Source: Pseudomonadota bacterium (lineage in GTDB: Bacteria; Pseudomonadota; Alphaproteobacteria; Acetobacterales; Acetobacteraceae). From it: a stretch of DNA of 41,207 bases. Every line of letters begins with the position of its first letter. Position 1 is the first letter of the stretch. The stretch spans positions 1 to 41,207 of the forward strand of contig JAKBBY010000006.1 of NCBI GenBank assembly GCA_021808315.1. Direction: 5' to 3'. The notes under the pieces were generated by a model, which was not told the DNA's origin, ran no database searches, and saw only the letters and a program-made list of their open reading frames with translations. The position numbers and the translations under genes are program-made. This document shows positions 1 through 24,865 of the stretch, one piece after another.

Positions 1-155
1 AAGGGATCTCCACGCGCATGTTAATTTATGCCGGTTCGCTGATCCAACGAGGCGTTGATCCGCTTGCCGCCTGCCGCGTGGCGTTGGTTCGCCCGATCAC
101 CGATGATCCGGATATGCGCAACGCGCTCGATTCTGCCGTCACCACCTATCTCTGA
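1..155 (+). CDS. cbbQ: CbbQ, C-terminal fragment (Rubisco activase AAA+ subunit)
   Basis: Reading the frame that begins at base 3 gives about 50 residues ending at a TGA at 153-155. They start GISTRMLIYAGSLI and contain a PITDDPDM segment. This matches the C-terminal end of the CbbQ/NorQ-type MoxR AAA+ ATPases, where a conserved GVSTR-like sequence is followed by a helix and a 'DDPD' element. CbbQ forms hexamers that act with CbbO to strip inhibitory sugar phosphates from Rubisco. The gene starts outside the window, so the Walker motifs cannot be seen. The next gene, cbbO, follows after 21 bases, which is the usual cbbQ-cbbO pairing and the main reason for preferring CbbQ over NorQ. Confidence 0.75.
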   Translation, partial: GISTRMLIYAGSLIQRGVDPLAACRVALVRPITDDPDMRNALDSAVTTYL

Positions 156-176: not shown

Positions 177-2534
177 ATGGTCATCGCGCTCGACGATTAT
201 CAGGAGATCATCGCCGATTTGCCAGAGGCGGCGGCGCACGCCCTGCGGTCCGGTTGGGCTGAAGCGGCGCGGGTGTTTTCTGCGCGCGGGCTGGAGCGCT
301 ATTTGCACGGTGCCATCGCGCTGCACCAACTGGGTCGTGGCGAGGCGCTGGTAGTGGCCTATCTGGGCGCTATGCCGTCGATTGTCCGCAGCCTGGGTGA
401 GGATTTGCTGGGCGACATGACCAGCTTTCTGCTCAGCATGGCATCGAAAACGTCAGGGCAAGTTCTCGCGCTGATTTGCGAGACCGCACCGCTTGCTGCG
501 GACCGGCTGGCGGATGCCGAGCTGTTTCGCGGCTATCTGGCGGTGCTCGGCGTGGTGCTGGCGCAGGCACCGCGCGGGTTGCGGCCCATGCTGGAAAATC
601 TCGACCGTCTGTTCGGCCAACTCACCTTGGGCGGGCTGCGCCGCTGGGTGAATTGGGGCGCGCAAGCCTACAAAGCCGATTTCGAGGGTCAACTGCGTTA
701 TTTTGGACTAAAAAGCCCCGACGCGCTGGCCGTGTTGCAACAGGAACGCAAAGGGACTTTGTTTGTTGATATTCAGCGGCGGCTGAATATTTATCTGCGC
801 GCGATGTGGGGGCGCGATTTTTTTCTGCGCCCGACCGCCGGCGATTACGAGAACCGCGAGGGGCTGCGCGCCTATATTGAGCGCTATGTGATCCATATCG
901 CCGATGCTTATGACGATCAGCCAATCTTTGAGGCCTCCGGCGCTTTGATCGCCACGGTTCCGGCGTTGGAGGTTTATCGCGCGGTTGCCAATCATTGTGC
1001 CGCACATCTCGTATTCACCACCACGCCCCTCTCGCGCCAGGAGCTGGCGCCGGTGCATGTCGCGGTGATCGAAATCATCGAGGATGCGAGGGTCGAGGAA
1101 CTGGCGATCCGGCAGTTTCCGAACATGCGTGCAGCCTGGCTCGCGCTGCACCCGCGCCCGAATGTCAGCGCCGCACCGGTGCGCATGGGCACGTTGTTCG
1201 CCCGCCTTGCCTACGCCCTGCTCGATCCTGACTGGCATGATCCGCATCCTTGGGTGCAACAGGGTGTGGCCGCGTTCCGCGCCGCTGCGTCGCTGGAGGA
1301 TAATCAGGTGAGCTGGAATATCGGCGTCTCGCTGGTGCATGGCCTGCTCTCGGTGCCGGTGCCTGAATATGACCCGCGCCGTGACGGCCAAAGCGTGATC
1401 TATCGCGATGATAACAGCTTTGTTTGGCAGGGCGAAGCTTATGATACGGACGAGGCGTTGGCGGCAACATGGGATACGGTGCAGGTCCGCAAGAAATCAT
1501 CGCTGATGGAGATGATTAACAATCTCGATGTCGAGTTTGCGGGCGATGATGCTCAGGAAATCTGGACATTGCCCACCGAATATATGCTGGATCAGGAAGG
1601 CGTCAGTATCAATCAGCTTGAAGGCAAGCCACCGGTCGCCGACCCGGTTTATTATCCCGAATGGGATTATCAAATCCAGCTCGAACGCCCGACCTGGGCT
1701 GCGGTGTTGGAGCGCACCCCGCCGACCGGCGATCTTGCGGTGATTGATCGGATCATTGAGGATAACAAACCGGTGCTGGCGCGGCTGCGCTTTCTGATCG
1801 AGGCGATGGCGCCGCAGGGCATGCAGCGCATTCGCCATATTGAGGATGGCGATGAGCTGGACATCAACGCCGCGATTCGCGCGATGATTGATATTCGCAC
1901 CGGTCACCAGCCCGATCCGCGGGTGATGATCAAATCCAAGCGCCATGTTCGCGACCTCGCGGTGACGGTGCTGCTCGATATGTCAGAATCGAGCAACGAC
2001 AAAGTGCGCGGGCAGGATTATAGCGTGCTCGATCTAACCCGCACCGCGACCGTGATGCTGGCTGGCGCGCTTGATCGGATCGGCGATGCGTTCGCGCTGC
2101 ACGGATTTTGTTCCGATGGTCGGCACGATGTGCGTTACTACCGGTTCAAAGATTTCGACCAACCCTATGATGATTTGGTCAAGGCCCGGCTTGCTGGCAT
2201 GACGGGGGCTTATTCGACCCGCATGGGGGCGGCACTGCGCCATGCGGGTCATTTGCTTGGCCAGCAGCGCCACACCAAGAAAATCATCTTTATGATTACC
2301 GATGGTGAGCCGGCCGATAATGATATGCGCGATCCGCAATATCTGCGGCATGACACGAAGCACGCGGTCGAGGCCTTGCGCCGCCAGGGCATCACCACCT
2401 ACGCGATCTCGCTCGATCCGCACGCCGATCACTATGTCTCACGGATTTTCGGCGCGAAATACTACACCGTGGTCGATCATATCGAGCGGCTGCCCGAACG
2501 GCTCCCCGCGCTCTATATGGGGTTGACGCAATAA
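177..2534 (+). CDS. cbbO: CbbO, VWA-domain partner of Rubisco activase
   Basis: This 785-residue protein has the CbbO/NorD layout: a long N-terminal helical region and a C-terminal von Willebrand factor A domain from roughly residue 590 to the end. The metal-ion-dependent adhesion site is visible as D601-M-S603-E-S605 (DxSxS) inside [11 protein letters not shown], with a downstream MITDGEPAD strand typical of VWA domains. In the known CbbQ/CbbO system, CbbO is the adaptor that binds Rubisco and recruits the CbbQ hexamer. Its stop codon (TAA) overlaps the ATG of the next gene. NorD, of nitric oxide reductase clusters, has the same layout, but the Calvin-cycle and shell-protein context favours CbbO. 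The ATG at 177 has only a weak ribosome binding site. Confidence 0.85.
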
Positions 2535-3187
2535 TGTCCGGCACCAGCAACGCGGAGATCACGCTGCGGGCCTTCGTCTTTATCGACGCGCTGCAAGCCC
2601 AACTCGCCTCGTATCTCGCGACGTCCTCGCAAGGGTTCCTGCCGGTTCCCGGCGATGCGTGCTTGTGGATTGAAGTTGCGCCCGGTATGGCGGTGCACCG
2701 ATTATCGGACATCGCGCTGAAGGCGACCAATGTGCATATGGGCGAACAAGTGGTTGAGCGCGCCTTTGGGTCGATGGAAATTCACTACCGCAATCAGAGC
2801 GAAGTGCTCGAAGCCGGGCGCGTGGTGCTGCGTGAATTGCGCACCACCGAAGACGCGCGCATGCCCTGCCGGATTGCCTGGAAAGAGGTGATTTGTGCGA
2901 TTACGCCAGACCACGCCACGCTGATTAACCGCCAGCTGCGCAAAGGTTCGATGCTTCTGCCGGGCAAATCGATGTTTATTTTGGAGACCGAGCCGGCGGG
3001 CTATATTGTCTATGCTGCCAATGAGGCGGAAAAAGCGGCGAACATCACGCTCGTTGATGTTCGTCCGTTTGGCACGTTCGGGCGCCTGACCATGATGGGC
3101 AACGAGGCCGAAGCCTATGCGGCGATGAAGGCGGCTGAGAGCGCTGTCGCGGCGATCAACAAAGCTGCTGGCCGTGCTGTTCGATGA
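2534..3187 (+). CDS. csoS1D: CsoS1D-type tandem BMC-domain carboxysome shell protein
   Basis: The 217-residue protein carries two bacterial microcompartment (BMC) folds in tandem. The first spans about residues 10-105 and includes [16 protein letters not shown] and [20 protein letters not shown]. The second spans about residues 115-215 and includes [20 protein letters not shown] and [14 protein letters not shown]. This is the pattern of CsoS1D, the trimeric alpha-carboxysome shell protein with a large gated pore. E75-R76 in QVVERAFG align by eye with the Glu-Arg gate pair of CsoS1D (E120/R121 in the Prochlorococcus protein). The length is near that of short CsoS1D members. TAATG overlap with cbbO and ATGA overlap with the protease gene show tight coupling. 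It implies alpha-carboxysome genes upstream of the window, which I cannot see. Confidence 0.85.
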
Positions 3188-4014
3188 TGGAGATCGATTC
3201 GCAGATTAAGCGGTTACTGTTCAACACAGTGCGGGTTGATATTGTGCTGGACGACGGCACGAACGGAACGGGCACCGCTTTCATCGTTGATCACCGTCAC
3301 CGAACCGGCATGCGGCGATTCATTGTTACCAATCGCCATCTGGTCGAGACTGTGCGCCGAGGCGGTTTGGTCTTCACCCAGAAGCGGGGCGGCAAGCCGA
3401 TGATCGGCCAGCGATTCCAACTCGATATCGAGGATTTTGCCGCGGCCTGGTTCGTGCATCCTGACCCGGCGGTTGATCTCGCGATTGTGCCGCTCGCACC
3501 GTTGGAAACCGCCGCGCATGCGCAGGGAACCGAGCTTTATTATCACGGCATTGACTCGCGTCTCACCTTGGGGGCGCCAAGCTTCGATCAGTTCGATGCG
3601 CTCGAAGACGTGCTGTTCATCGGCTACCCGAGCGGGATCTGGGATCATGTGAACCTGATGCCGATCCTGCGCCGAGGCACGACGGCGACGCCGCTTGCCC
3701 TCAATTTCGAGGGGCGCGACGAATTTTTGATCGATGCCGCCGTGTTTCCGGGGTCCAGCGGTAGTCCGGTTTTTGTGGTTGAACACCCCAAAAGTGCGGC
3801 ATTGCGGCCAGCGAAGCCGAGTTACCGGTTTGCCGGCGTTGTTGCCGCCGTGTTCTTCCGCGAGGAAACCAACGAGATTGTTCCGGTGCCGGTTCCCGCT
3901 TCCGCGACTGTGGCGACGTTCACCGGCGCGGAGATGGTCGATCTCGGCCTTGTTATCAAGGCGAAGGCGGTGCTGGCCATTCTTGATGCGTATTGCGCGC
4001 GTTTTGTCGAATGA
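3184..4014 (+). CDS. Trypsin-like (S1/HtrA-fold) serine protease coupled to csoS1D
   Basis: The 276-residue protein has a recognisable chymotrypsin-fold catalytic triad: H52 in [10 protein letters not shown]98 in AVDLAIVPL and S192 in FPGSSGSPV, the position of the classic [15 protein letters not shown] strand at residues 28-35 matches the start of trypsin-like peptidase domains. There is no signal peptide, no membrane segment and no room for a PDZ domain, so it should be a soluble cytoplasmic enzyme, unlike periplasmic DegP. The ATG lies inside the csoS1D stop (ATGATG), giving translational coupling. The position suggests a role in carboxysome or Rubisco quality control or in processing a shell or scaffold protein, but the substrate is unknown. 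Activity is inferred only from the conserved triad. I do not recall this as a standard carboxysome gene. Confidence 0.75.
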
Positions 4015-4686
4015 CACCTAAGCTGATGAACTGGATTGGCCGACCAGATCGCTATCGGGGCCAAGGTCGCACTTTCTGCGCCGCCAATAACGCGTTGGTT
4101 ATCAGTCCGCTGTAATGGCGCGATCACGCTGTCAAACAATCATCGTGAAGACGTTCAATCCGGGTCCACTAATTTGCTTTGGCGGCACCGCGCGGGCGAT
4201 CATGGACGCTGATCCTGCCCCCGGTTTCCTCAACCGACTCTCGTGGACTGGTGGTGATGCTGAACTGCCGATCAGATGGCAATAACGAATAGATCTGAAG
4301 CTGATTTCGGCGCGTGTAGATACAATCGAGACGAGACGAAAACGGCCATTTTCTGGCGGAACAATGCCGGATAACTCTAATATTACTCTTTGTTTTTTCA
4401 ATATAAATTTTTATTATTCGGATTTATTCAGACAAACAGCTTCGGCGAATCAATCCGTTTTGCTATTCGGCTAGTCTCAATTCCATCAGGCGCATCAAAC
4501 AGGGATTTTATTGGCCGATAATACAGGGAGGCTGACCCAACCCGCCGGGCAACCTCATGCATTATACATCATGTAAAAGATTTTTCTTTACTTATATTAT
4601 CAATATCTGTCACAACGGTGTCAGACGAGATTTTGCGTCGTCTGAACGACGGCACGAGCCAGAAGGTGGTGCACGTAAAGGAGGAA
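4015..4686. promoter_or_regulatory. Intergenic region upstream of cbbF with AT-rich segments
   Basis: About 600 bp separate the protease gene from cbbF. No convincing gene is present: the longest open frame, on the minus strand at 4132-4401, has a TTG start, no ribosome binding site and no recognisable motif. Two AT-rich segments stand out, about 4380-4435 and 4558-4615. The second includes the palindrome TACATCATGTA (4565-4575). These fit a promoter and operator region for the cbbFPA genes. Calvin-cycle operons are commonly controlled by the LysR-type regulator CbbR, which is not encoded in the window, and I could not pick a convincing -35/-10 pair. Confidence 0.35.
4036..4064 (+). terminator. 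Hairpin after the carboxysome-linked gene block (possible terminator)
   Basis: Just after the protease stop codon there is a perfect six-base inverted repeat, TTGGCC at 4036-4041 and GGCCAA at 4059-4064. A further GA/TC pairing is possible inside if two G residues bulge. The downstream sequence has only a short CTTTC tract, so it is a weak intrinsic terminator at best. It may partly separate the cbbQ-cbbO-csoS1D-protease block from cbbF. Confidence 0.25.
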
Positions 4687-5757
4687 ATGTTGCCCGGCCA
4701 TCAGAGACTCGATTTTTATCTTGAGACGATTATCGCCCGGTCGCCACATCTGCGCGACGCCGGTGCGGCGGTGCAAGCGATTGCCGAGGCGGGTAAACGC
4801 ATTGCCAAACTATTGGCCTGTGGGCCACTTGCTGGGAATCTGGCGGCTATTGTTGGCGATTCGATTGATGGTGATGGTCAAAAAGCATTGGATGTGCTGA
4901 CGCATGATATTGTGCTCGACGCGCTTCGTGCAGCACCGGTCGCGGTATTCGCCTCTGAGGAAGCGGATCAGCCCGAAATTCTGAATCCGGCTGCGCATTT
5001 GGCGGTTGCGGTTGATCCGCTGGATGGTTCATCGAACGTCGATACGCTTGCGCCCGTTGGCACGATATTCTCAATTTTGCCGATCACTGATTTTGATACG
5101 GCAGCGCCTGAATTGGTGTTTTATCAACCGGGCCGCAACCAACTGGCCGCGGGCTTTTTGATTTACGGCCCGCACACCGCTCTGGTGCTGACGATTGGTG
5201 CCGGCACCACCATCTTCACGCTTGATCCGGCAAGCGGGCAGTTTCTGGCAACGATCAATGATGTGACGGTTTCACCCAAAACCCGCGAATATGCCATTAA
5301 TGGTTCGAATATGCGCCATTGGGACCCGGAGATCCGCTCCTATATTGTAGATTTGAAAAAGGGCCATAGCGGGCCGCGCGGTGTTGATTTCAATATGCGC
5401 TGGTTGGCTTCAATGGTTGCGGAGGCTTATCGAATTTTGCAGCGTGGCGGTATTTATCTCTATCCGGTCGATCAACGACCGAACTACCGCGCGGGCCGAC
5501 TCCGGCTGATTTATGAGGCCAATCCGATTGCGATGATCATGGAGCAGGCGGGTGCTGCTGCGACCGATGGTCATTCTGCCATTCTTGATCTCTGTCCCAA
5601 AACGCTTCACCAACGCTGCGCGCTGGTGTTTGGCTCTGCCGATGAAGTGGCGCGGGTGCGCGAAGCTTATGCGGGTGGCGATCCCACGCCATCGCCGTTG
5701 TTCAAATCGAGGTCGTTATTTCGCCAAGCCGGATCAGATCATGAGTTGCTCACGTGA
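4687..5757 (+). CDS. cbbF: Fructose-1,6-bisphosphatase class I
   Basis: It hydrolyses fructose 1,6-bisphosphate to fructose 6-phosphate in the regenerative phase of the Calvin cycle; some bacterial forms also act on sedoheptulose 1,7-bisphosphate. The metal-binding signature of class I FBPases is clear in AVDPLDGSSNVD, preceded by FASEEAD. The C-terminal half has the expected GGIYLYPVDQRPN and RLIYEANPIAMIMEQAG blocks. The start is uncertain. A GTG at 4618 would give 379 residues but has no ribosome binding site. The ATG at 4687 (356 residues) gives the usual family length, and a near-perfect AAAGGAGG lies just before it, only two bases from the ATG; a TTG at 4690 would have better spacing. 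I chose 4687. The stop overlaps the cbbP GTG. Confidence 0.92.
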   Translation: MLPGHQRLDFYLETIIARSPHLRDAGAAVQAIAEAGKRIAKLLACGPLAGNLAAIVGDSIDGDGQKALDVLTHDIVLDALRAAPVAVFASEEADQPEILNPAAHLAVAVDPLDGSSNVDTLAPVGTIFSILPITDFDTAAPELVFYQPGRNQLAAGFLIYGPHTALVLTIGAGTTIFTLDPASGQFLATINDVTVSPKTREYAINGSNMRHWDPEIRSYIVDLKKGHSGPRGVDFNMRWLASMVAEAYRILQRGGIYLYPVDQRPNYRAGRLRLIYEANPIAMIMEQAGAAATDGHSAILDLCPKTLHQRCALVFGSADEVARVREAYAGGDPTPSPLFKSRSLFRQAGSDHELLT

Positions 5758-6629
5758 GCCGCAAGCATCCGATTATTTCAGTCACCGGCTCGTCTGGCGC
5801 GGGTACCACGTCGGTTCGGCGGGTGTTTGAGCAGATTTTTCGCCGGGAAAAAATCACCGCAGCCTATCTGGAGGGTGATGCTTTTCACCGCTATGACCGC
5901 ATGGAGATGAAACAGAAAATGGCTGAGGCCGAAGCGGCGGGCAATCGTCATTTCAGCCATTTCAGCCCGGAGACCAACATTCTCGCCGAGTTGCAAGAGA
6001 TTTTCAGAACCTATGCAGAAACCGGCGCCGGTCGATGCCGTCATTATATCCATGACGAACGTGAGGCTGAGGAATATGGGGGAGAGCCTGGCACCTTCAC
6101 CGATTGGGAGCAGTTGCCGAGCAATACTGATATTCTGCTCTATGAAGGTCTGCATGGCGCCCTGAAGCACGGCGATATCGATACGGGCAAGCATGCGGAT
6201 ATCAAAATTGGTGTCGTGCCCGTAATCAATCTTGAATGGATTCAGAAAATCCACCGTGATCGCGCGGCGCGCCGTTATTCAACCGAGGCGGTCACGGACA
6301 CGATTCTGCGCCGGATGCCTGACTATGTGCATTACATCTGCCCGCAATTTACCGAAACCGATATCAATTTTCAGCGTGTGCCGCTTGTTGACACGTCCAA
6401 CCCGTTTGTTGCGCGTTGGATTCCAACGGCGGATGAATCGATGGTGATTATTCGGTTTCGTGATCCGCATGGCATCGATTTTCCGTATTTGTTATCGATG
6501 CTGCATGGGAGTGCCATGTCCCGCGCCAATTCAATCGCCGTTCCCGGCAACAAGTTCGATTTGGCGATGCAATTAATTCTCACCCCGGTGATCATGCAAC
6601 TGATTGACCGGAAACGGCGGGCCCAGTGA
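5754..6629 (+). CDS. cbbP: Phosphoribulokinase, bacterial class I
   Basis: Phosphoribulokinase uses ATP to make ribulose 1,5-bisphosphate, the Rubisco substrate, so it marks a functional Calvin cycle. The 291-residue length fits the proteobacterial octameric class I enzymes. The P-loop is [11 protein letters not shown] at residues 10-20. The usual Walker Lys is replaced by Thr, as is normal in this class. Further family blocks are [33 protein letters not shown] and [12 protein letters not shown]. It starts at a GTG that overlaps the cbbF stop (GTGA), indicating coupled translation. It is followed after 64 bases by cbbA. Confidence 0.95.
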
Positions 6630-6693
6630 TGATCGCCCGCTCAGAAATTCACCGCGCCAGTCTGGCGCTCATGATATCGAAAGGTGCTGTCTC

Positions 6694-7773
6694 GTGGCTA
6701 AAATAACGTTACGACAATTGCTCGATCATGCGGCTGAGCGCGGCTATGGCGTTCCGGCGTTCAACATTAATAGCATGGAGCAGGTTCAAGCGATCATGCA
6801 AGCGGCGGCGCATACCGATTCGCCCGTGATTTTGCAGGCGTCACGTGGTGCCCGTTCCTACGCCGGCGATATCATGCTGGCAAAAATGATTGAAGCGGCT
6901 GAAGCTATGTTCCCAACAATTCCCATCTGTTTGCATCAAGATCATGGTAATGACGAAGGCACCTGTCTATCTGCAATCCAGCATGGTTATACCAGTGTGA
7001 TGATGGATGGGTCACTCAAGGCTGATGCAAAAACCCCCGCTGACTACGCCTATAATGTTGATATCACCGCCCGTGTAACGGACATGGCTCATCGGGTTGG
7101 CGTATCGGTTGAGGGCGAGCTTGGGGTGTTGGGTAGTCTTGAGACGGGCACGGGCGAGGCGGAAGATGGTCATGGCGCTGAAGGGGCTTTGTCGCATGAT
7201 CAACTTCTGACCGATCCCGATCAGGCCGTTGATTTCGTGAAATCAACCAAGGTCGATGCGCTTGCGGTAGCGATGGGGACATCCCACGGCGCCTACAAAT
7301 TCTCGCGCAAGCCTGATGGTGCGATTCTTGCGATGAATGTGATCCGGGCGATCAATGAACGCATGCCGTCGCTACATATGGTGATGCATGGTTCGTCCTC
7401 GGTGCCCCAGGATTTGCAAGAGGAATTTAATCGGTACGGTGGCGAGATGCCGCAAACGTGGGGTGTGCCGATTGAGGAGATCTTGGTTGGTATTAAATAT
7501 GGTGTGCGTAAGGTCAATATTGATACTGATTGCCGCCTCGCGATGGCAGCGGCGATTCGTAAGGTTGCCGCCGAGAAGAAATCCGAGTTTGATCCGCGTA
7601 ATTTCATGAAACCGGCGATCACGGCGTTGCGTGTGTTATGCCAGCATCGCTTCGAGGCGTTCGGGTCAGCGGGGCAAGCGTCGAAAATAAAATGTGAGTC
7701 GCTTTCGGCCATGAGCCACCGATACGCATCAGGGTCTCTGGACCCGGTGTTTTCAACTCGTCAAGCGGCTTGA
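6694..7773 (+). CDS. cbbA: Fructose-bisphosphate aldolase class II
   Basis: This zinc-dependent aldolase joins dihydroxyacetone phosphate with glyceraldehyde 3-phosphate (and commonly erythrose 4-phosphate) in the Calvin cycle. From the GTG at 6694 the protein has 359 residues, the usual size for the CbbA-type subgroup. Zinc and catalytic residues are seen in CLHQDHG (H81, D83, H84), and the SVEGELG and VMHGSSSVP blocks are typical. The C-terminal part ([25 protein letters not shown]) is that of the CbbA type. The frame stays open upstream to 6604, inside cbbP, but GAAAGG lies nine bases before the GTG and the protein then begins with the expected [13 protein letters not shown]. Confidence 0.95.
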
Positions 7774-8039: not shown

Positions 8040-8704
8040 ATAATCGACCGCTGCTAATCGCGCCGTCAATTTTGGCTGCCGATTTTTCAAAACTCGGCGA
8101 TGAGACGCGCGCGGTCCGCGCCGCGGGAGCTGATTGGATCCACATTGACGTCATGGATGGTCATTTCGTGCCGAATATCAGCTTCGGTGCTGTCGTCATG
8201 AAATCTATCCGAAAGCAATGCGAAGCTGTGTTCGATGTGCATCTGATGATCTCACCGGTTGACGTGTATCTCGAAGATTTTGCGGCAGCTGGCGCAAATA
8301 TTATTTCAGTTCACGCGGAAGCCACAACCCATCTTGATCGCTCGATCCAGGCAATCAAGCGCCTTGGTTGCAAAGCGGGCGTCGCTCTTTGTCCGGCAAC
8401 ATCCGAGCATGTGCTCAATTATGTGCTCGATGAAATCGATTTGGTTTTAGTGATGACAGTTAATCCGGGGTTTGGTGGTCAGCAATTTCTGCAGAGTCAA
8501 CTTCCGAAAATTAGCCGTATTCGCGATATGATCGGTGATCGACCTATTCACATCGAGGTTGATGGTGGTGTCACTGCGGCGAATGCTGGCGCCTGCCGTG
8601 CGGCGGGTGCTGACGTGCTGGTCGCTGGTTCCTCAGTATTTCGCGGAGATGCATCGACCTACGCAACCAATATCCGGGCGCTGAGAGACGCCGCGGCCTC
8701 ATGA
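8036..8704 (+). CDS. rpe: Ribulose-phosphate 3-epimerase
   Basis: The enzyme interconverts ribulose 5-phosphate and xylulose 5-phosphate in the Calvin cycle and pentose phosphate pathway. The 222-residue TIM-barrel sequence has all the family signatures: [15 protein letters not shown] near the N-terminus, [18 protein letters not shown] with metal and catalytic residues, VFDVHLMI, the [12 protein letters not shown] loop and the phosphate-binding VDGGVT and VAGSSVF segments. The ATG is preceded by a G-rich GGTGAGGGG ribosome binding site. Its stop overlaps the nuoA ATG (ATGA). This ties a carbon-fixation gene directly to the complex I operon. In a Calvin-cycle setting it can be called cbbE. Confidence 0.95.
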
Positions 8705-9108
8705 TTCATCACGATCCACTGAATTATCTCACATTTGGCATGTATATCCTCGGCGTTACGGTTATGATGGCCGTAATGGTTGGCTTGTCGGCACTGCTCG
8801 GCACGCGCCGTCGGGGTGCTGCTGATCCTCATCCGTTCGAATCAGGAATTTTGCCAGTTCATGATATGAACATCCGATTCCCGAGCCAGTTTTATATATT
8901 TGCGATGTTATTCGTCATTTTCGATCTTGAATTGATTTTTGTTTTTGCTTGGGCCGTTGTCGCTCGTGATGTTGGCTGGCGGGGCTACGGCGCGATCATG
9001 TCATTTCTATTTTTGCTCGTGATAGCCCTGGCGTATCTTTGGCGGTCAGGCGCTCTGGTCTGGAGCACACCGATGGAGCGGGCTCGCTTGCGGCGGGGGA
9101 TCCAGTGA
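8701..9108 (+). CDS. nuoA: NADH-quinone oxidoreductase subunit A
   Basis: This is a small membrane subunit of complex I, 135 residues, with three hydrophobic segments at about residues 12-34, 65-85 and 96-115. The conserved loop [22 protein letters not shown] between the first two helices is the hallmark of NuoA; its acidic residue lies at the quinone-site interface with Nuo[11 protein letters not shown] is the usual second-helix motif. The ATG overlaps the rpe stop (ATGA), and its own stop overlaps the nuoB ATG (TGATG). It is the first gene of a contiguous nuo operon. Confidence 0.96.
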
Positions 9109-9701
9109 TGGCTGACGGTGAACGCGGATCACCAGAAAACCAGACGTTTTTGCTCGGTAAATTACAAGACCTCGTGTCTTGGGGTCAAAAAAATTCGCTT
9201 TGGCCGTTTAACTTCGGCTTATCGTGCTGTTATGTTGAAATGGCAACGTCATTTACATCGAAATTTGATATTGCACGTTATGGCTCTGAGGTGCTTCGCG
9301 CGACCCCCCGTCAGGCCGATGTTATTGTGATTGCTGGCACGGTATTTCTGAAAATGGCGCCGGTGGTCAAACATCTTTATGATCAGATGCTCGAGCCCAG
9401 ATGGGTCATTTCGATGGGATCCTGCGCAAATTCAGGCGGGATGTATGATGTCTATAGCGTGGTGCAAGGGGTGGATTCGATCCTGCCGGTCGATGTGTAC
9501 GTGCCCGGTTGCCCACCCCGCCCGGAGGCCTTGTTTGAAGGATTAATGCTGCTGCAGAAATCTATTGGGGCAACACGGCGCCCTTTGAGCTGGATGATCG
9601 GCGATAATGGACCGGTTCCCTATGAAAAGCCAAGCCAGCGAGACCAAAAAAATGCTGAGAGAATGGCGATGACGATTCTCACGCCGCCGGACCGCGTATA
9701 A
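9108..9701 (+). CDS. nuoB: NADH-quinone oxidoreductase subunit B
   Basis: NuoB carries iron-sulfur cluster N2, the last electron carrier before quinone. The ligands are visible: tandem Cys in [13 protein letters not shown], Cys in [14 protein letters not shown] and Cys in [13 protein letters not shown]. The sequence is very close to the E. coli subtype ([29 protein letters not shown]). The start at 9108 gives 197 residues and a TGATG junction with nuoA. The frame stays open upstream to 9039, but that would extend it into nuoA without reason. The TAATG overlap with nuoCD continues the tight packing. Confidence 0.96.
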
Positions 9702-11443
9702 TGAATTACCCGGTTCTTGAAGTTGCATCTAATGCCACGCGTGCCACGATGAGCGTTGAGCAGACGGTTGATGGTATTGAAACATTTTGGGTGCATCCAT
9801 CGGATATCATTCAGGAACTAACAAAAAATAAGCTCGATGGTCAGAATGGCTATCCAATCTTGCTCGATTTAACCGCGCTTGATGAGCGGTCCAGAATTGG
9901 ATTTCGCCATTGCATGCGACGGGATTTCACTGTCGTTTATCATTTATTGCGGCCATCGGACGGCCGCCAGCGGCGGTTCAAAGTTCCTTTGTCTTTTGAT
10001 CGTCTCGTCATACCAACAGCGTCAAATCTTTGGCCAAACGCAAATTGGTATGAGCGAGAAATCTGGGACATGTTTGGCATTGAATTCGCGGGTCACCCCA
10101 ATATGACGCGAATATTAATGCCGGAAAGTTGGATCGGGCATCCGCTCAGGAAGGACCATTATTGCCGGGCGACCGAAAAACCACGCTATACTCTGCCGGA
10201 CAGGGTTGCGTTAGATGAGCAAATATCGCTGCGCGATCTGCCCACTCGGCGTGCCCTGTTCGACGCGGGGGATGCGGACCCAGAAACGATGGTCATTAAT
10301 CTTGGCCCCAATCACCCGAGTTTGCATGGAGTTCTTCGGCTTGTTGTGAAGCTGAAGGGCGAGTTAATCGTCGACATCATACCCGAGATTGGGTTTCATC
10401 ACCGGGGTGCGGAGAAAATTGCAGAGCGTCAATCGTGGCATAGTTTCATACCATATACTGATCGGATTGATTATGTTGCGGGTGTGATGAATAACTTCCC
10501 CTATGTCATGGGGGTCGAGAGGTTAGCTGGTATTGATGTTCCTCAGCGCGCCCAGATCATTCGAATCATGCTTGCGGAATTTTTCCGGATCATCAGCCAT
10601 CTCGTGTTTTTCGGGACGATGGTTCAAGATGTCGGCCAATTATCGCCGGTTTTTTATGCGTTCATTGATCGAGAAAAGGCACTCGAAGTCATCGAAGCTA
10701 TTTGCGGCTTTCGCATGCACCCCGCGTGGTTCCGTATCGGCGGCGTCGCGGCGGATCTGCCGACTGGCTGGGACGATTTAGTGCGGGCATTTTTGAATTA
10801 CTTGCCAGGGCGACTCGCGGAATACGAAAAAATGGTGATGCAAAATAGGATATTCAAAGCGCGCACCATTGGTATTGGCGACGTGTCAGCCACCGAGGCT
10901 CAGGAGTGGGGTATTACGGGGCCGTGTTTGCGAGCGACTGGTATTAATTTCGATTACCGAAAGTCCGCGCCCTATTCAGGCTATGACCTTTTTGAATTTG
11001 ATGTGCCGATTGCCAACCGGAGTGATTGCTATAACCGGGTGAGATTAAGGCTTGACGAAATACGCGAGAGCCTTCGAATTATCCGCCAATGTGTTGATAA
11101 CATGCCCACGGGACCTGTTCGTGCCGCGCATCCACTGGCGACACCGATGCCACGTGCGGCAATGTTACGCGATATTGACAGCCTAATTCCGCATTTTCTT
11201 AACGTGTCCTGGGGTGCTGTTGTGCCGGCCGGTGAAGTTTCGGTCACGATTGAGGCCACGAAGGGGCTTAATACTTATTATCTCGTTAGTGATGGCGCGA
11301 CCGTGCCCTATCGCACGCGCATTCGGACACCGTCATTTGCGCATTTACAAACGATACCTTTGATGAGCAGAGGCACTTATCTCGCCGATCTGATTGCAAT
11401 TATTGGCAGCATTGATTTTGTGATGGCCGATGTCGATCGATAA
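9701..11443 (+). CDS. nuoCD: NADH-quinone oxidoreductase fused subunits C/D
   Basis: This 580-residue protein joins NuoC (about residues 1-180) with the NuoD 49-kDa subunit (about 190-580). The NuoC part has the 30-kDa signature around WYEREIWDMFGIEFAGHPN. The NuoD part has INLGPNHPSLHGVLRLVVKL, the quinone-site GFHHRGAEKIAE and RIDYVAGVMNNFPY. The fusion is characteristic of the gammaproteobacterial and some other complex I types (about 600 residues in E. coli). Typical alphaproteobacteria keep nuoC and nuoD separate. The protein sits at the interface between the hydrophilic arm and the membrane arm. nuoE overlaps its 3' end by 14 bases. Confidence 0.96.
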   Translation: MNYPVLEVASNATRATMSVEQTVDGIETFWVHPSDIIQELTKNKLDGQNGYPILLDLTALDERSRIGFRHCMRRDFTVVYHLLRPSDGRQRRFKVPLSFDRLVIPTASNLWPNANWYEREIWDMFGIEFAGHPNMTRILMPESWIGHPLRKDHYCRATEKPRYTLPDRVALDEQISLRDLPTRRALFDAGDADPETMVINLGPNHPSLHGVLRLVVKLKGELIVDIIPEIGFHHRGAEKIAERQSWHSFIPYTDRIDYVAGVMNNFPYVMGVERLAGIDVPQRAQIIRIMLAEFFRIISHLVFFGTMVQDVGQLSPVFYAFIDREKALEVIEAICGFRMHPAWFRIGGVAADLPTGWDDLVRAFLNYLPGRLAEYEKMVMQNRIFKARTIGIGDVSATEAQEWGITGPCLRATGINFDYRKSAPYSGYDLFEFDVPIANRSDCYNRVRLRLDEIRESLRIIRQCVDNMPTGPVRAAHPLATPMPRAAMLRDIDSLIPHFLNVSWGAVVPAGEVSVTIEATKGLNTYYLVSDGATVPYRTRIRTPSFAHLQTIPLMSRGTYLADLIAIIGSIDFVMADVDR

Positions 11444-11945
11444 GAATCTGTTGCACCTTACTGAGGCAGAGCAACGGGAGATCCAAGAGATCGTTGCGTC
11501 TTATCCGCATCCGAAGGCGGCATCACTTGATGCCTTGCTTCTCATACAGGCCAAGCGTCGATATATAAGCGATGATATGTTGGCAGCCATTGCTACTTTA
11601 ATTGGAATCTCGGTTGCCGAACTTGATGAGTTGGCAACCTTTTATAATTTAATTTATCGAAAACCCGTTGGTCAGAATGTCATTCTGCTGTGCGACAGCA
11701 TTAGTTGCTGGATCATGGGTCGGGACGCTATTGAGTGTGCAATTAAACAGCAACTTCAGATTGAGGTTGGTGAAACTGATCGAGAGGGGCAGTTCACTCT
11801 TTTACCCATTGTCTGCCTTGGCCATTGTGATCATGCGCCAGCGATGCTGATCAATAAGCAATTATATGGTGATGTCACACAAGATGAGGTCAAATCGCTG
11901 CTTGAGCGACACAAACATGGGGAAACAGAATGCAGCACCCCTTGA
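11430..11945 (+). CDS. nuoE: NADH-quinone oxidoreductase subunit E
   Basis: This is the 24-kDa subunit homologue, 171 residues, a thioredoxin-like protein binding the [2Fe-2S] cluster N1a. The four Cys ligands are in VILLCDSISCWIMG and PIVCLGHCDHAPAM, with the usual spacing. The N-terminal helical part (YPHPKAASLDALLLIQAKR, then VAELDELATFYN) is typical. It pairs with NuoF to form the NADH-dehydrogenase head. The ATG at 11430 lies inside the end of nuoCD and the stop lies inside the start of nuoF, so three genes overlap in series. Confidence 0.95.
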   Translation: MSIDKNLLHLTEAEQREIQEIVASYPHPKAASLDALLLIQAKRRYISDDMLAAIATLIGISVAELDELATFYNLIYRKPVGQNVILLCDSISCWIMGRDAIECAIKQQLQIEVGETDREGQFTLLPIVCLGHCDHAPAMLINKQLYGDVTQDEVKSLLERHKHGETECSTP

Positions 11946-13204
11946 CCATGCATTGTCGCCCGGTGCTTTCGGATTTATCGCAACCGGTTGGTTGCGATTC
12001 CTATCGTTTCGAGGTCGCTCGTCAGATTATTGGAAAAGTTGACCGGAATTATTTGCTTGATGTTGTTGAGCAATCGGGTCTGGCTGGTTGTGGAGGTGGG
12101 AGTTTCCCGACAGGGCGCAAATGGAGGCTCTACCCACCACAGAGCGAAAGGCCGGGACCGCGATATTTTATTATTAACGCCGACGAAATGGAGCCGGGGA
12201 CATTCAAGGATCGCCTATTGCTCGAAGACGAAACAAGTTTACTGATCGAGGGTATTATCCTCAGTGCCTATATTTTGGATGCGAATGAATGCTATGTATT
12301 TGTTCGGGGTGAATATCAATTAGCCATTGAGCGTTTGATGGCTGGTATTGAGCAAGCCAAAATGGCGGGCCTACTTGGAACTGACATCCTTGGCAGCAAA
12401 TTTTGTTTGGATATCCATGTGCATCGCGGCGCAGGGCGTTATATTTGCGGCGAGGAGACCGCTCTGCTCAATTCTTTGGAAGGACGGCGACCCGTGCCGC
12501 GCGCCAAGCCTCCATATCCCCAAGTTAGCGGTCTGTGGGGAGCCCCGACGATTGTCAATAATGTCGAGACCGTCGCCAATATCCCCAATATCATCAAAAA
12601 TGGCGCGCAGTGGTATCGTTCACTGGGACGCAATGGCGGTGTCGGGACGAAGATTTTTGGCGTTAGTGGTCGAGTGATGCGTCCGGGAACATATGAATTG
12701 CCGATGGGCACGACAATGCGTGAACTCATTGAGGACCATGCGGGGGGGATGCGCTCTGGCTATCGATTGCGCGCGGTTTTGCCTGGCGGAGCCTCGACCG
12801 CTTTTTTGAGTGCCGAACAGCTGGATACACCGATGACGCCAGCCGCGATGATGAAAAGTGGAACGCGGCTTGGAACCGGAACGGCAATTATTCTCGACGA
12901 TCAGACCTGTCCTGTTGGGTTTATCGCTAATTTACAGCGATTCTTTGCGCGCGAGTCATGCGGATTTTGCACGCCATGTCGTGATGGGCTGCCATGGGTA
13001 TCGCAGATTCTTGATCGCATTGAGGCGGGCAAAGGGAGGGCTGAAGATCTTGATCGGTTATCAGACCTCCAAAATACGCTCGCTGCTGGCAACACGTTTT
13101 GTGCATTAGCCCCTGGTGCCATGGCGTCACTGCAGAGTGGATTGTCGCTCTTCCGCGATGATTTTGTTCGGCATATCGAACAAGGGGCATGTCCATGGAA
13201 GTGA
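11930..13204 (+). CDS. nuoF: NADH-quinone oxidoreductase subunit F (FMN/NADH site)
   Basis: The 424-residue subunit holds FMN, the NADH site and cluster N3. Recognisable blocks are FIINADEMEPGTFKDR (FMN and NADH), RGAGRYICGEETALLNSLEGRR, VNNVETVANIP and the N3 ligands in SCGFCTPCRDG plus TFCALAPGA. It is of the E. coli type throughout, including the HPLT N-terminus, which supports the start at 11930; a GGGGAAA sequence precedes that ATG. One oddity is the glycine-rich FMN loop. It reads GLAGCGGGSFPTG, with Cys54 where the family normally has Arg (GRGGAGF) and Gly-Ser in place of Ala-Gly. All other cofactor residues I can identify are intact, so the subunit should be functional. Confidence 0.95.
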   Translation: MQHPLTMHCRPVLSDLSQPVGCDSYRFEVARQIIGKVDRNYLLDVVEQSGLAGCGGGSFPTGRKWRLYPPQSERPGPRYFIINADEMEPGTFKDRLLLEDETSLLIEGIILSAYILDANECYVFVRGEYQLAIERLMAGIEQAKMAGLLGTDILGSKFCLDIHVHRGAGRYICGEETALLNSLEGRRPVPRAKPPYPQVSGLWGAPTIVNNVETVANIPNIIKNGAQWYRSLGRNGGVGTKIFGVSGRVMRPGTYELPMGTTMRELIEDHAGGMRSGYRLRAVLPGGASTAFLSAEQLDTPMTPAAMMKSGTRLGTGTAIILDDQTCPVGFIANLQRFFARESCGFCTPCRDGLPWVSQILDRIEAGKGRAEDLDRLSDLQNTLAAGNTFCALAPGAMASLQSGLSLFRDDFVRHIEQGACPWK

Positions 13205-15894
13205 AAAAGGCGCAAATAGTCGTCGATGGAGTGGCTATCGACATTGATCGTTCAAATAATGTGTTAGCAGCTTGTCTTTCCGCTCGGTTGGATTTGCCTT
13301 TTTTTTGCTGGCATCCATCCCTTGGCTCTGTTGGGGCATGCCGCCAATGTGCCGTGACTGTTTATAAGGATGATCAGGATAAAGTTGGCCAGATCGTGAT
13401 GGCCTGCATGACCCTTGCCACGCCGGGCATGATTATCTCTCTGACGGATACGAAAAGCCATTCGGTTCGCCAATCCGTTATAGAGCTTGCCTTGACTAAT
13501 CATCCGCATGATTGCCCGGTTTGTGAGGTTGGCGGTGATTGTCATCTTCAAGACATGACTGTGATGACCGGGCATAGCGTTCGGCATTATGATTTTCGCA
13601 AGCGCACGCATTTGAACCAGGAGCTCGGCCCGTTCATTAAGCATGAAATGAATCGCTGCATTAGCTGTTATCGGTGCGTGCGCTTCTATCGTGATTATGC
13701 GGATGGAACGGATTTTGGGGTCTTCGGAGCGTCGCGCAATGTTTATTTTGGGCGGGCGCGCGATGGCGCCCTAGAAAGTGAATTCGCAGGCAATCTCATT
13801 GAAGTTTGCCCGACCGGCGTGTTTGTTGATAAACCCTACGCGCAGCGGTTCGTGCGTAAATGGGATATGCGGGCAATGCCGTCGGTCTGTCCGCATTGCG
13901 CTGTTGGCTGCAATGTGACGATTCAGGAGCGCGAGGGCGAATTTCGTCGCGCATCGAATCGATTCAACGCAGCGGTGAATGGATATTTTCTGTGCGACCG
14001 TGGCCGGTTCGGCATCGGTTTTGTTAATGAACCAAAACTAGCAAGCTCGGTTCGCCGTGATGGCTTGCTGGTGGCGACCAATGACGCGGAGGCACGCGCG
14101 CATTTGGTGGCGATATTGAAATCCGAAACGGTCATTGGCATTGGATCGCCCCGCGCATCGCTTGAATCGAATTTCATGCTCCGGACGCTGGTCGGGCCCG
14201 ATCGGTTTTACGCGGGGACATCGGATCATCAATGGCAGATTGCTGCGATGGCCGCAAAAATCATCGCGGAGCACGGCATTCCAACGGCCTCAATCGTTGA
14301 TGTCGAAGCCGCCGATTGCGTCTTGATCATTGGTGATGATCCATCGGACGTTGCGCCGCGGTTGGCTCTGGCGGTGAGGCAGGTGGCCAAGGTCAGTGCG
14401 AGTGGCACCGGTGCCGTTGTAGACTTACCAGACTGGCACGCGGACGCCCGAAAGACAGCGCAGATTTTCGATAAACCGTCTTTGTTTATCGCAACTCCCC
14501 TTCCGACACGGTTAGACGCATTGGGTGCCGATGTCATGCGTGGCACGGCGGAGCAACTGACTGATATGTGCGCGCAGATCGAAACAGTGCTCATTTCGAA
14601 TAGTGAGAACGACCAAGCCGCTGAATTGTTAAGTGGCCGCGCGGCCAGTGCGTTGCGCAGCGCACATAGGCCGGTGATTATTGTGGGTGGAAATTCCGCT
14701 GGTGCAAATCTCCTGGGATTGGCGGCGAATATTATCATTGCTCTCCGCAATCGTGGTGCCGATGCGCGCATTATCATGCTTTTACCTGAGGTCAATAGTC
14801 TTGGGCTTGCGCTATTGCAGCCAAAATCACTGAATGAACTTCGCAGTGATCCAACGATTGGCCGGGCGCCGGGATATATCGTTTTGGAAAATGACTTTTT
14901 GCGCTATCTTTCAGAGGGCGCGCTTGCCGATATTCGCGGACAAGAAGCTAAAATTGCAGTGCTTGATCACGTTGAGACCCGCACGACGCAGGGAGCCGAC
15001 GTTACGATCCGGTGTGCGAATTTCATTGAAGCCGGAGGCATCGTTGTCAGTGCTGAGGGGCGTGCCCAATCATGGAACCAAGCCATATTCAGTGACGAAC
15101 CTGTTACGCCGGCGTGGGAGATACTTCACGAAGGTGGCGCGGCTGCCGAATTGATCGCATCGTCAGGGCTCAGAAATCAAGAGGCGGTTCTTAACCTGCT
15201 TGCGGAACAATCCGCGATCTTTGGCGCTTGCGTTGGGATGGTTGCCACGGGCAACGACCAGGCGCAACCGACGCCGAGCTTGCCGTTCCGCTATAGCGGG
15301 CGAACGGCAGTAAAAGCGCATATCGATGTGCGCGAGGCGCCGCCACCCCCCTCAAGTCATCCATCCTGGAGTGCGAGCATGGAAGGCGCACGGTTACATC
15401 CGGACGCCAATATTGTGCCTCAGTTCTGGGCGCCTGGTTGGAACTCAAGCCACGCCCTCAATCAGTTTCAAACGAGTATCGGCTTGTCTCTGCGGGCGGG
15501 CGATGAAGGCGTTTTACTGTTTCCGCAGGATAGCGAGCTTGTTCGCATCGAGCGCTCGCCAGCAAGGACGGTCAGCAACGACGCGATTATGTTCTGTGAA
15601 ATTTCCCCGGTATTTGGCGGTGAGGCGTTGAGTGCACGATCAGCGCCGATCCGTGAACGAATGGGCGAGGCTGTCGTTGTGGTCGGCAATGTGCTGGCCA
15701 AATCGTTTTCCATCCATGATGGGGCGTGGGTTCGGTGTGATATTGGCGGCGTCAGCGTCGTCCGAAAAGTGTTGATCACGCAATCAATTGTAGAAAATTA
15801 CTGCGGTATCACTATCAACGTATCTGACGAGCCAGATTTATTGCTTCCTCACACGGGAATGATTACTCGGATCACGGACGAGGGAAGAGCATGA
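13195..15894 (+). CDS. nuoG: NADH-quinone oxidoreductase subunit G
   Basis: This large iron-sulfur subunit has about 899 residues from the ATG at 13195, or two more from 13189; an AAGGGG sequence is better spaced for 13195. Electron-carrying motifs in order are the [2Fe-2S] N1b ligands (FFCWHPSLGSVGACRQC), the His-Cys N5 motif (NHPHDCPVCEVGGDCHLQDM), the N4 ligands (MNRCISCYRCVRFY) and the N7-type CPHCAVGC with a distant Cys in FLCDRGRFG. The rest is a molybdopterin-oxidoreductase-like fold without a cofactor role in complex I. Length and sequence match the E. coli type (908 residues) rather than the roughly 690-residue alphaproteobacterial NuoG. The stop overlaps nuoH (ATGA). Confidence 0.95.
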   Translation: MEVKKAQIVVDGVAIDIDRSNNVLAACLSARLDLPFFCWHPSLGSVGACRQCAVTVYKDDQDKVGQIVMACMTLATPGMIISLTDTKSHSVRQSVIELALTNHPHDCPVCEVGGDCHLQDMTVMTGHSVRHYDFRKRTHLNQELGPFIKHEMNRCISCYRCVRFYRDYADGTDFGVFGASRNVYFGRARDGALESEFAGNLIEVCPTGVFVDKPYAQRFVRKWDMRAMPSVCPHCAVGCNVTIQEREGEFRRASNRFNAAVNGYFLCDRGRFGIGFVNEPKLASSVRRDGLLVATNDAEARAHLVAILKSETVIGIGSPRASLESNFMLRTLVGPDRFYAGTSDHQWQIAAMAAKIIAEHGIPTASIVDVEAADCVLIIGDDPSDVAPRLALAVRQVAKVSASGTGAVVDLPDWHADARKTAQIFDKPSLFIATPLPTRLDALGADVMRGTAEQLTDMCAQIETVLISNSENDQAAELLSGRAASALRSAHRPVIIVGGNSAGANLLGLAANIIIALRNRGADARIIMLLPEVNSLGLALLQPKSLNELRSDPTIGRAPGYIVLENDFLRYLSEGALADIRGQEAKIAVLDHVETRTTQGADVTIRCANFIEAGGIVVSAEGRAQSWNQAIFSDEPVTPAWEILHEGGAAAELIASSGLRNQEAVLNLLAEQSAIFGACVGMVATGNDQAQPTPSLPFRYSGRTAVKAHIDVREAPPPPSSHPSWSASMEGARLHPDANIVPQFWAPGWNSSHALNQFQTSIGLSLRAGDEGVLLFPQDSELVRIERSPARTVSNDAIMFCEISPVFGGEALSARSAPIRERMGEAVVVVGNVLAKSFSIHDGAWVRCDIGGVSVVRKVLITQSIVENYCGITINVSDEPDLLLPHTGMITRITDEGRA

Positions 15895-23093: not shown

Positions 23094-24089
23094 TCAAGGT
23101 TTGAGGATAATTTTTGCAGCGGCTAAATCACCATGATCGATCATCTGAAAAGCTTGGCTCCCCGCATTCAGAGGCATATGGTGGACCCAGCCAAGCTCTC
23201 CGAAGCCTTGTTTTGCCAACGTATCAACAACATCACGAAAATCGGTCTCTGTATAGCAGTAACTGCCGCGCACGGTAATTTCTTGCAGCGTCATTCGGCG
23301 AATATCAAATCCATCATGACCGGGTAAAAGCCCGATATGGATAATTTGGCCGCCGGGCACCACGAGGCGGCTCGCTGCTCTGCGCGTGGTGGCCGCGCCC
23401 ACCGCATCGATCACCAGATCAACCGATGAAGGTGGTGGCTCTTGAGCGGCGCCGGGATCATAAACCTGGATCAACGCCTCGGCGCTCGCGGTTTGGCGGC
23501 GTTGAGGATTTGTTTCACCAAGCCAGATATCATGGGCTCCAAAATTCCGCAAAACTAACGCCGCACCCAGTCCGATGGCGCCGCCACCCAGAACGCAGCA
23601 CCGTGCCAAGGGCAGGGGGCGTTGTAACCCCTCGATCCCGATCCGAACCGCATGCCATGACACGGCGAGCGGCTCGGCCAACGCGGCGACCGTAAAATCC
23701 ATATCATCTGGAATATCAATTAAATTGCGTTCTGGAACGGCAACATATTCAGCAAATGCACCGGGACGTGGCGGCATTGAGAGAATTTGACGTTGGCCGC
23801 ATAAATGACTCCGGCCCGCCCTGCAATAGGCACAGTGCCCGCAGGTGACGAGTGGATTTATGGCCACGCGCCGACCTTGATCTGGCCCGTTCGCGATGAT
23901 GCCAGCCGCTTCATGCCCTAACACCAGCGGTGCGGGTCGGCGTTCGTCATGGCCGTGATAGGCGTGCATGTCGGAGCCGCAGATTCCAACGGCTGCGACT
24001 TTAATCAACGTGTCACCATGGCCCGACGATGGCATCGCTACGTCGCGATAGGCAAGCTCATGTGGTGCGATGTATATTAAGGCCTTCAT
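23094..24089 (-). CDS. hpsP: Zinc-dependent alcohol dehydrogenase, probable DHPS 2-dehydrogenase
   Basis: The 331-residue medium-chain dehydrogenase has the catalytic zinc region GICGSDMHAYHGHDE with GHEAAG, and the four structural-zinc Cys in CGHCAYCRAGRSHLC. A Rossmann glycine motif follows (CCVLGGGAIGLGAALVL). By sequence alone it could be a threonine- or sorbitol-type dehydrogenase. It is the last gene of a run that matches the hpsU-N-O-P cluster known for DHPS degradation in Cupriavidus pinatubonensis. There HpsO and HpsP are proposed to interconvert DHPS stereoisomers through a keto intermediate. It follows hpsO by eight bases. The HpsP assignment depends mainly on this context. Confidence 0.7.
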   Translation of the reverse strand: MKALIYIAPHELAYRDVAMPSSGHGDTLIKVAAVGICGSDMHAYHGHDERRPAPLVLGHEAAGIIANGPDQGRRVAINPLVTCGHCAYCRAGRSHLCGQRQILSMPPRPGAFAEYVAVPERNLIDIPDDMDFTVAALAEPLAVSWHAVRIGIEGLQRPLPLARCCVLGGGAIGLGAALVLRNFGAHDIWLGETNPQRRQTASAEALIQVYDPGAAQEPPPSSVDLVIDAVGAATTRRAASRLVVPGGQIIHIGLLPGHDGFDIRRMTLQEITVRGSYCYTETDFRDVVDTLAKQGFGELGWVHHMPLNAGSQAFQMIDHGDLAAAKIILKP

Positions 24090-24097
24090 CCATCATC

Positions 24098-24862
24098 CTA
24101 TTTGGCGGTGTATCCGCCATCAACGAATAAAGTTTGGCCGGTGATATAGGCGGAAGCCTCAGAAGCGAGGAATATCGCGGCGCCAAATAAGTCCGGCATC
24201 GTGCCATTGCGTCCAATTGCCGTGCGGCGTGCGTTCTCAGTGCGTTGGGCCTCGTCGCGAAAGACCGCCTCGGTCAATGCGGTTCGAAAAAATCCCGGTG
24301 AAATCGCATTGCACGTGATGCCCTCCGGCGACCAGCGCTCGGCAATGGCGCGCGTTAGTTGAATGACGCCACCTTTGGCCGCACCATAGGGCGCAGAGTT
24401 TGGAAAAGCTCGGACTGTCTGTAATGAGCCAAGCATAATCACCCGCCCGTATCGTCGGCGTGCCATCGCGGGTGCCAAGCGTTGCACCAGCCGAAATGGC
24501 GCCCGCAGATGAACCGCCATATGCAGATCGAACGCGTCAAGCGAGACGGCCTCGAACGGCTGACGAAGATTGATCCCGGCTGCATTGACCAAAATATCAA
24601 CCGGATCGTCCAGCCTATCAACGATATCGTCTGGCCCGTCTCTGGTCGCGAGATCGCCAGCGATAAGGTGCGCCTCAATCCCTTGATCCGTCAAACTTTG
24701 CGCTGCCTGCTCGAGTTCGGTGCGGCGGCGCGCAGCGAGGATAACCCGAGCGCCCTGCCGCCCCAGCGCTTCAGCGATGCCAAGCCCGATACCGGAATTG
24801 CCGCCGGTGATGAGGGCGGTTCGTCCATCGAGCGTGAAAAGATGATCCAATCGATGGGTCAT
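24098..24862 (-). CDS. hpsO: Short-chain dehydrogenase, probable DHPS 2-dehydrogenase
   Basis: This 254-residue classical SDR has the cofactor motif TGGNSGIGLGIAE, then NAAG, and the catalytic Ser (LGSLQT), Tyr and Lys (YGAAKGG). It ends with the usual SAYITGQTLFVDGGYTAK. Arg-rich AARRR after the second strand suggests that NADP use is possible, but HpsO-type enzymes are described as NAD-linked, so I leave the cofactor open. It lies three bases after hpsN and eight before hpsP, in the same order as the described hps cluster. Context supports oxidation of the 2-hydroxyl of DHPS as one half of the racemising pair with HpsP. Other SDR substrates cannot be excluded from sequence alone. Confidence 0.72.
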   Translation of the reverse strand: MTHRLDHLFTLDGRTALITGGNSGIGLGIAEALGRQGARVILAARRRTELEQAAQSLTDQGIEAHLIAGDLATRDGPDDIVDRLDDPVDILVNAAGINLRQPFEAVSLDAFDLHMAVHLRAPFRLVQRLAPAMARRRYGRVIMLGSLQTVRAFPNSAPYGAAKGGVIQLTRAIAERWSPEGITCNAISPGFFRTALTEAVFRDEAQRTENARRTAIGRNGTMPDLFGAAIFLASEASAYITGQTLFVDGGYTAK

Positions 24863-24865
24863 GGC

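Follow-up and report, generated by a model that had tools for sequence, protein, structure and literature searches.

The window is the whole stretch of 41,207 nucleotides analysed here and equals the entire contig, so the remainder of the carboxysome operon lies outside view in this genome. The features at the locus are as follows:

1..155, + strand: 3' end of cbbQ, cut by the contig start (tblastn marker match; sequence)
177..2534, + strand: cbbO, VWA-domain partner of the CbbQ Rubisco activase, 785 aa (Pfam VWA; tblastn marker match)
2534..3187, + strand: csoS1D, BMC tandem (pseudohexamer) shell protein, 217 aa (Pfam BMC; NCBIfam CcmP model at 3e-66, below its cut-off)
3184..3187, + strand: ATGA overlap, protease start over csoS1D stop (sequence)
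3184..4014, + strand: soluble trypsin-like serine protease, 276 aa (ORF with ATG start, Pfam, triad alignment, predicted structure)
4618..7773, + strand: genes for the Calvin-cycle enzymes fructose-bisphosphatase, phosphoribulokinase, and class II aldolase, some 600 bases past the protease

The csoS1D stop codon (TGA) occupies positions 3185-3187 and the protease ATG begins at 3184. The first-pass annotation had placed an ATG inside the stop of a CsoS1D-type gene, and this is borne out. A further in-frame ATG at 3187-3189 also overlaps the stop. Because it is the start position of the homologues in Nitrobacter and in a member of the same genus (G011), TGATG rather than ATGA may be the true overlap. 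The apparent coupling of csoS1D and the protease holds whichever ATG is used.

The gene order is the same as in the alpha-carboxysome (cso) operon with CbbQ/CbbO and McdAB up to cbbO/csoS1D. The typical operon order, in the passages of PMC9164163, names no protease. In a close relative (L010), csoS2 to csoS1D lie upstream of a protease that is 88% identical to that of the window. In G011, a stretch carrying cbbL to cbbO (L132) is adjoined by one carrying csoS1D and the protease (L131).

Elsewhere in the window, complex I genes directly follow the Calvin-cycle genes (8701-15894) and include a fused NuoC/NuoD of 580 aa. The reverse strand at 23094-30159 encodes a histidinol dehydrogenase-like protein, two more dehydrogenases, an MFS transporter, a GntR regulator, and an altronate dehydratase-like protein. 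From its predicted products, this cluster looks like one for sugar-acid or polyol catabolism.

Trypsin_2 is the sole Pfam match of the protease at E-values up to 0.01 (4.9e-11; 44 bits against a cut-off of 27.6). The catalytic triad is composed of His52, Asp98, and Ser192, with PGSSGSPVF around the serine. An intact triad and the lack of a signal peptide had been claimed earlier, and both stand. The three residues and the GSSGSP segment are invariant in all 48 aligned homologues (48 of 61 sequences aligned), and the triad is kept in 8 of 8 outgroup relatives. The N-terminus has no hydrophobic stretch (top 19-residue Kyte-Doolittle mean of 0.63 in the first 40 residues). With no export signal found, the protein is a predicted cytosolic type.

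An AlphaFold2 monomer model shows a chymotrypsin-like fold at moderate confidence (pLDDT 73.4, pTM 0.77), with pLDDT below 50 at residues 150-157, 166-168, and 237-251. The modelled chain stops 84 residues past Ser192, at a helix spanning residues 260-275. Profile, triad, and the predicted double beta-barrel all identify the protein as trypsin-like (chymotrypsin fold). A PDB sequence search gave no match at 0.01, and an NCBIfam search found nothing useful. In structure comparison, 982 of 993 chains align to the model at a Z of at least 5, and the 50 matches listed are protease-fold proteins. Among these listed matches the Deg/HtrA protease domains are closest, with a VIA Z of 16.7 to Deg2. The S1C proteins Deg2, DegQ, and DegS share the protease-domain fold (VIA Z of about 14-17 over about 180-198 residues), but identity to the matches listed is about 14-21% and the protease lacks both an export signal and the PDZ domain expected of HtrA/Deg (Pfam, E up to 0.01).

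MamO of magnetosomes is also among the structural matches (Z of 14.8). MamE and MamO differ from the protease in organelle and pathway, and also in membrane location and gene-cluster position. The two are described as trypsin-like proteins required at an early step of organelle construction in bacteria, and the title of PMC4794232 calls MamO a repurposed serine protease. The protease could likewise be a repurposed fold with no peptidase role, but the invariance of the triad and of the GSSGSP segment in 48 of 48 sequences makes this very unlikely. A second parallel is found in glycyl-radical (GRM) microcompartment loci, which contain a peptidase gene with an unclear role according to passages of PMC4207490. 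The likeness is a peptidase gene in a microcompartment locus; the GRM system is a metabolosome rather than a carboxysome, and those passages do not state the peptidase family.

Homologues were sought in a collection with one genome per species (84,980 species) using patterns that favour close homologues. A pattern was matched by 111 stretches, and 59 were confirmed as close homologues, with 61-88% identity, in Alpha-, Beta-, and Gammaproteobacteria. Together with the window and a Nitrobacter hamburgensis plasmid copy, which carries the public annotation 'serine protease', these make up 61 loci. The loci are not independent, since some nearly duplicate each other (CbbO rows are identical within L047/L048, L051/L052, and L053/L135). 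Markers for the CO2-concentrating mechanism (CCM) were taken from the window, L002, and family-checked neighbours.

All 61 loci have CCM genes within 6 kb of the protease. Going upstream, the first marker encountered is csoS1D in 25 loci, cbbO in 13, SulP in 9, PII in 6, and an LCIB-type gene in divergent orientation in 6; the other two loci are at a contig end, with u4 (a conserved small protein described below) and SbtA downstream of the protease. Where the upstream marker gene is on the same strand, the gap to the protease is at most 47 bases in 45 of 53 measured cases. The recurrence beside csoS1D or cbbO that the first-pass annotation predicted thus extends over three proteobacterial classes, as judged by record titles. 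Chance or local coupling is ruled out by the 59 further loci and the 61 CCM contexts.

Within 6 kb, 31 loci have both carboxysome and Ci-uptake markers, 17 have carboxysome markers only, and 13 have Ci-uptake markers only. A carboxysome marker is therefore nearby in 48 of 61 loci, so the expected proximity to carboxysome genes applies to most homologues, but the remaining 13 sit with SulP/SbtA/PII bicarbonate-uptake genes instead. Ten of these 13 lack carboxysome markers throughout the stretch retrieved (L018 has cbbO/cbbQ markers and is not counted among them). Nine genomes of these ten were tested, and eight have CsoSCA elsewhere; across the locus genomes tested, CsoSCA is present in 13 of 15. 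The link of the protease is to the CCM as a whole and not to csoS1D/cbbO alone.

The conserved protein u4 is about 95-105 aa in length (for example, L013:10837-11139, + strand), and at 31 of 61 loci it is the first marker beyond the protease. Other occurrences are at L114:13930, L013:15962, and L060:12664, and the genes close to which it lies include DabA, cbbL, and a second cbbO. It has no Pfam or NCBIfam match. Its model is helical (pLDDT 83.5), and a PDB fold search gave no match (best E of 4.1).

The carboxysome genomes that carry the protease were examined in two order samples. One holds 399 genomes from the order of G093 (Thiomonas; presumably Burkholderiales), drawn from a larger group, and the other 47 genomes from the order of G091 (Thioalkalivibrio). 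In the Thiomonas order, a CsoSCA-family match is present in 41 of 399 genomes (0 of 14 control genomes). The CCM-type protease (at least 63% identity) is present in five, all among those 41 (p 9e-6). In the Thioalkalivibrio order, CsoSCA is present in 37 of 47 genomes, the protease in 12 (one match being a 72-residue contig-end fragment), and both in 10. Carriers thus have CsoSCA in 5 of 5 and 10 of 12 cases, sets that overlap with the locus genomes above; carriers with no CsoSCA match are G518 and G090 in the Thioalkalivibrio order and G082 among the locus genomes (genome completeness not given). Both samples are centred on carriers, G093 and G091.

A CsoSCA tree of the 78 genomes with a family match in the two samples places the carriers in exactly one clade, with 15 of 15 inside and 0 of 63 outside (SH-aLRT 100; quick tree with no bootstrap). 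When G093 and G091 are left out, the clade holds 13 of 13. The carrier label changes once on this tree, against a shuffled mean of 14.0, and 0 of 500 shuffles were as low. Three CsoSCA-family matches (G251, G257, and G381) have low scores and are possibly not carboxysomal. With 63 of 78 CsoSCA genomes lacking the protease, a role as a general alpha-carboxysome part is ruled out; most sampled alpha-carboxysome genomes do without it, and it is therefore not needed for the carboxysome as such.

A similar picture is obtained with CbbO, where 50 of 51 carrier-locus rows fall in one clade (99/100; 12 non-carrier rows). The exception is the very distant CbbO of L018. The CsoSCA clade and the CbbO picture together indicate that the protease marks one alpha-carboxysome lineage. 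This carboxysome type occurs in Beta- and Gammaproteobacteria, and CbbO extends it to Alphaproteobacteria.

CsoSCA, CbbO, McdA, bfr, acRAF, CsoS1, and CbbQ were compared between carriers and non-carriers. The nearest neighbour of a carrier row has the same label in CsoSCA (26/26), CbbO (51/51), McdA (43/43), bfr (36/36), and acRAF (41/41). These five genes track the protease as one operon lineage would and are therefore inseparable by descent. CsoS1 does not separate carriers (for 20 of 39 carrier rows the closest row is another carrier's), nor does CbbQ by median identity (83.5% within carriers, 83.7% between). Columns fixed between carriers and non-carriers number 13 in CsoS1D and 17 in CbbO (12 non-carrier rows each); they follow lineage and were given no weight as evidence. 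Protease distance correlates with that of other cluster genes at rho 0.39-0.90, which does not separate substrate candidates from shared descent.

The 25 loci with csoS1D as the closest marker upstream suggest that CsoS1D might be the route by which the protease reaches the shell. Within the Thiomonas order, the protease and csoS1D (E < 1e-80) are present in the identical five genomes (chance 1.3e-6 within the 41 CsoSCA genomes). In the Thioalkalivibrio order, however, csoS1D is present in 39 of 47 genomes and in 11 of the 12 carriers, and shows no association with the protease (p 0.66). One carrier, G497, gave no csoS1D match. Moreover, where carriers have csoS1D elsewhere, their CsoS1D is nearest that of the protease-free L148 (78-80%) rather than the adjacent type (63-67%) in 9 of 9 tested. 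The last result makes CsoS1D unlikely as a specific substrate, and action through it is unlikely overall. The conserved partner proposed earlier is accordingly the CCM, found at all 61 loci, and not csoS1D, which is constant neither in presence nor in type.

In the Thiomonas-order sample, a close csoS1D is present in 5 of the 41 genomes with a CsoSCA-family match, so the pseudohexamer would be either absent from most alpha-carboxysomes there or strongly diverged. In G386, csoS1D-like genes occur twice, but CsoSCA gave no match.

The protease has moved between operon types. Trees cover 49 of the 61 proteases, and on the 49-row tree the label 'carboxysome gene upstream' changes eight times (shuffled mean 15.7; bootstrap 7-9). 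At least four of the changes are forced by well-supported branches, and none leaves the CCM. Retention through these moves favours a CCM function over mere linkage.

We consider the protease to be a dedicated cytosolic CCM protease of one alpha-carboxysome lineage, its activity being predicted, with a probability of roughly one half. Its gene is placed either inside the carboxysome operon or next to genes for bicarbonate uptake and is therefore probably a dedicated, so far unstudied part of that carbon-concentrating machinery. The encoded protein is, by its predicted structure, a Deg/HtrA-like catalytic domain, free of PDZ domain and export signal, specified by a carboxysome operon tail or a bicarbonate-uptake operon. 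It would be co-produced with the CCM, probably under a shortage of inorganic carbon, and would make a limited cut in, or remove, a protein specific to that carboxysome lineage. Such cleavage would be a maturation or quality-control step. The first-pass annotation had suggested CsoS2, Rubisco, or the shell as possible targets. CbbO, CsoSCA, and CsoS2 are placed above CsoS1D or any one transporter as candidate substrates because the CbbO and CsoSCA types track the protease, whereas the CsoS1D type and SbtA presence do not.

Several observations stand against the reading as a dedicated CCM protease. Most sampled alpha-carboxysome genomes (63 of 78) lack the gene, and three carriers (G518, G090, and G082) show no CsoSCA. 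CsoS1 and, by median identity, CbbQ do not separate carriers. The tracking by CbbO and CsoSCA is expected from shared operon descent with any substrate. The 13 loci with Ci-uptake genes alone nearby favour a role in transport. Distribution is patchy near home: among 80 relatives of the window searched for the protease only, the CCM-type protease is present in the window's own genome, in 1 of 12 other members of the genus, and in 1 of 35 other members of the family, with distant partial matches only in G003 and G045.

The main rival is that the protease controls bicarbonate uptake, cutting or turning over SulP, SbtA, DAB, or the PII regulator as CO2 supply changes, with the carboxysome-operon location in some lineages serving only co-regulation. 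Operons of the order SulP-protease-u4-SbtA-PII and SbtA-PII-protease exist, and a Ci-uptake marker (transporter or PII) is within 6 kb in 44 of 61 loci, being the sole CCM marker type in the 13 loci above. The transporter-operon loci L054, L026, and L041 also split first on the tree with distant outgroups, but the outgroup branches are very long and the rooting is therefore weak. No single transporter is constant. SbtA exceeds the cut-off in 11 of 12 Thioalkalivibrio-order carriers but in 2 of 5 from the Thiomonas order, where 117 of the 394 other genomes have it, and this rules out a protease specific to one transporter. The 17 loci with carboxysome markers alone nearby, some on short contigs, also count against uptake control, which we regard as possible but doubtful.

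The protease also belongs to a wider family. It matches the PADLOC model PDC-S45, a single-protein phage-defence candidate, at 1.2e-81 over its full length (residues 2-269 to model positions 11-282 of 293). The same match was found in 48 of 48 CCM homologues and in 8 of 8 distant relatives scanned (on plasmids and at L128 and L129). Location among defence genes is the basis of PADLOC candidates such as PDC-S45. The CCM protease is similar to PDC-S45 in length and has the same triad; judged on CCM markers alone, it differs in location, with all 61 CCM-clade loci lying by CCM genes. The CCM clade is separate from the eight outside relatives (96/94; long outgroup branches) and has at most 36% identity to them, although short local matches elsewhere reach 39%. 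A phage search gave a single weak partial match, in two records of Shigella phage SfII, and a DNA search of E. coli gave none.

Recombinase or transposase genes adjoin several of the plasmid-borne relatives. At L128 and L129, the ORFs beside the relative were read by eye, with no family search, as restriction-type and TIR/SEFIR-like. These neighbours and the PDC-S45 matches would fit a gene of defence or of a mobile element that has simply been swept along with the CCM cluster. Such mere carriage is quite improbable, since the several moves between CCM operons include none out of the CCM, and the gene is kept in 15 of 15 clade genomes with a median identity of 78% inside the CCM clade.

The dedicated CCM protease and this family background can be combined in a more speculative form. 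A protease from a plasmid-, perhaps defence-associated family may have become obligatory in one alpha-carboxysome lineage, where, by cutting an assembly protein or an activase protein (CsoS2, CsoSCA, or CbbO), it would set carboxysome maturation or dismantling by CO2 supply. We put this forward tentatively.

To our knowledge, maturation, repair, and removal of alpha-carboxysomes are little understood, Halothiobacillus neapolitanus has no such protease gene, and cleavage by the protease would, if true, be the first proteolytic step in alpha-carboxysome biology. As a gene kept in every sampled member of one carboxysome lineage and shifted between carboxysome and bicarbonate-uptake operons, it offers a single testable entry to these processes. 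It also marks a CCM sub-lineage found in nitrifiers and sulfur oxidisers alike, and deserves thought when carboxysomes of this lineage are transplanted.

The gene is not described in the open-access PMC literature as covered by titles, abstract openings, and passages (subscription papers and supplements fall outside this scope). Open-access papers and reviews on alpha-carboxysomes and the CCM, covered by protease and peptidase terms, do not mention such a gene. It does not appear in the passages of PMC9164163, PMC4207490, PMC4633670, PMC10781756, PMC12429752, PMC8217296, and PMC12918739. Counts of these terms are zero in the covered text of PMC13159521, and two 2026 reviews contain none of them.

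Several further arrangements were seen at the homologous loci. In the carboxysome operon of L013, cbbO precedes the protease and SulP/SbtA/PII come after it; csoS1D and a second cbbL-cbbQ-cbbO set then follow. An LCIB-type gene is divergent from the SulP or protease operon at many loci (for example, L012, L016, and L030), and at L022:8691-9833 (- strand) this gene matches the LCIB/C carbonic anhydrase family at 6.5e-6, just over the cut-off. The carboxysome/protease contigs L051 and L052 are filed as a Burkholderiales bacterium and a Nitrobacter, and their identical CbbO under different taxa suggests a binning error in one of the assemblies.
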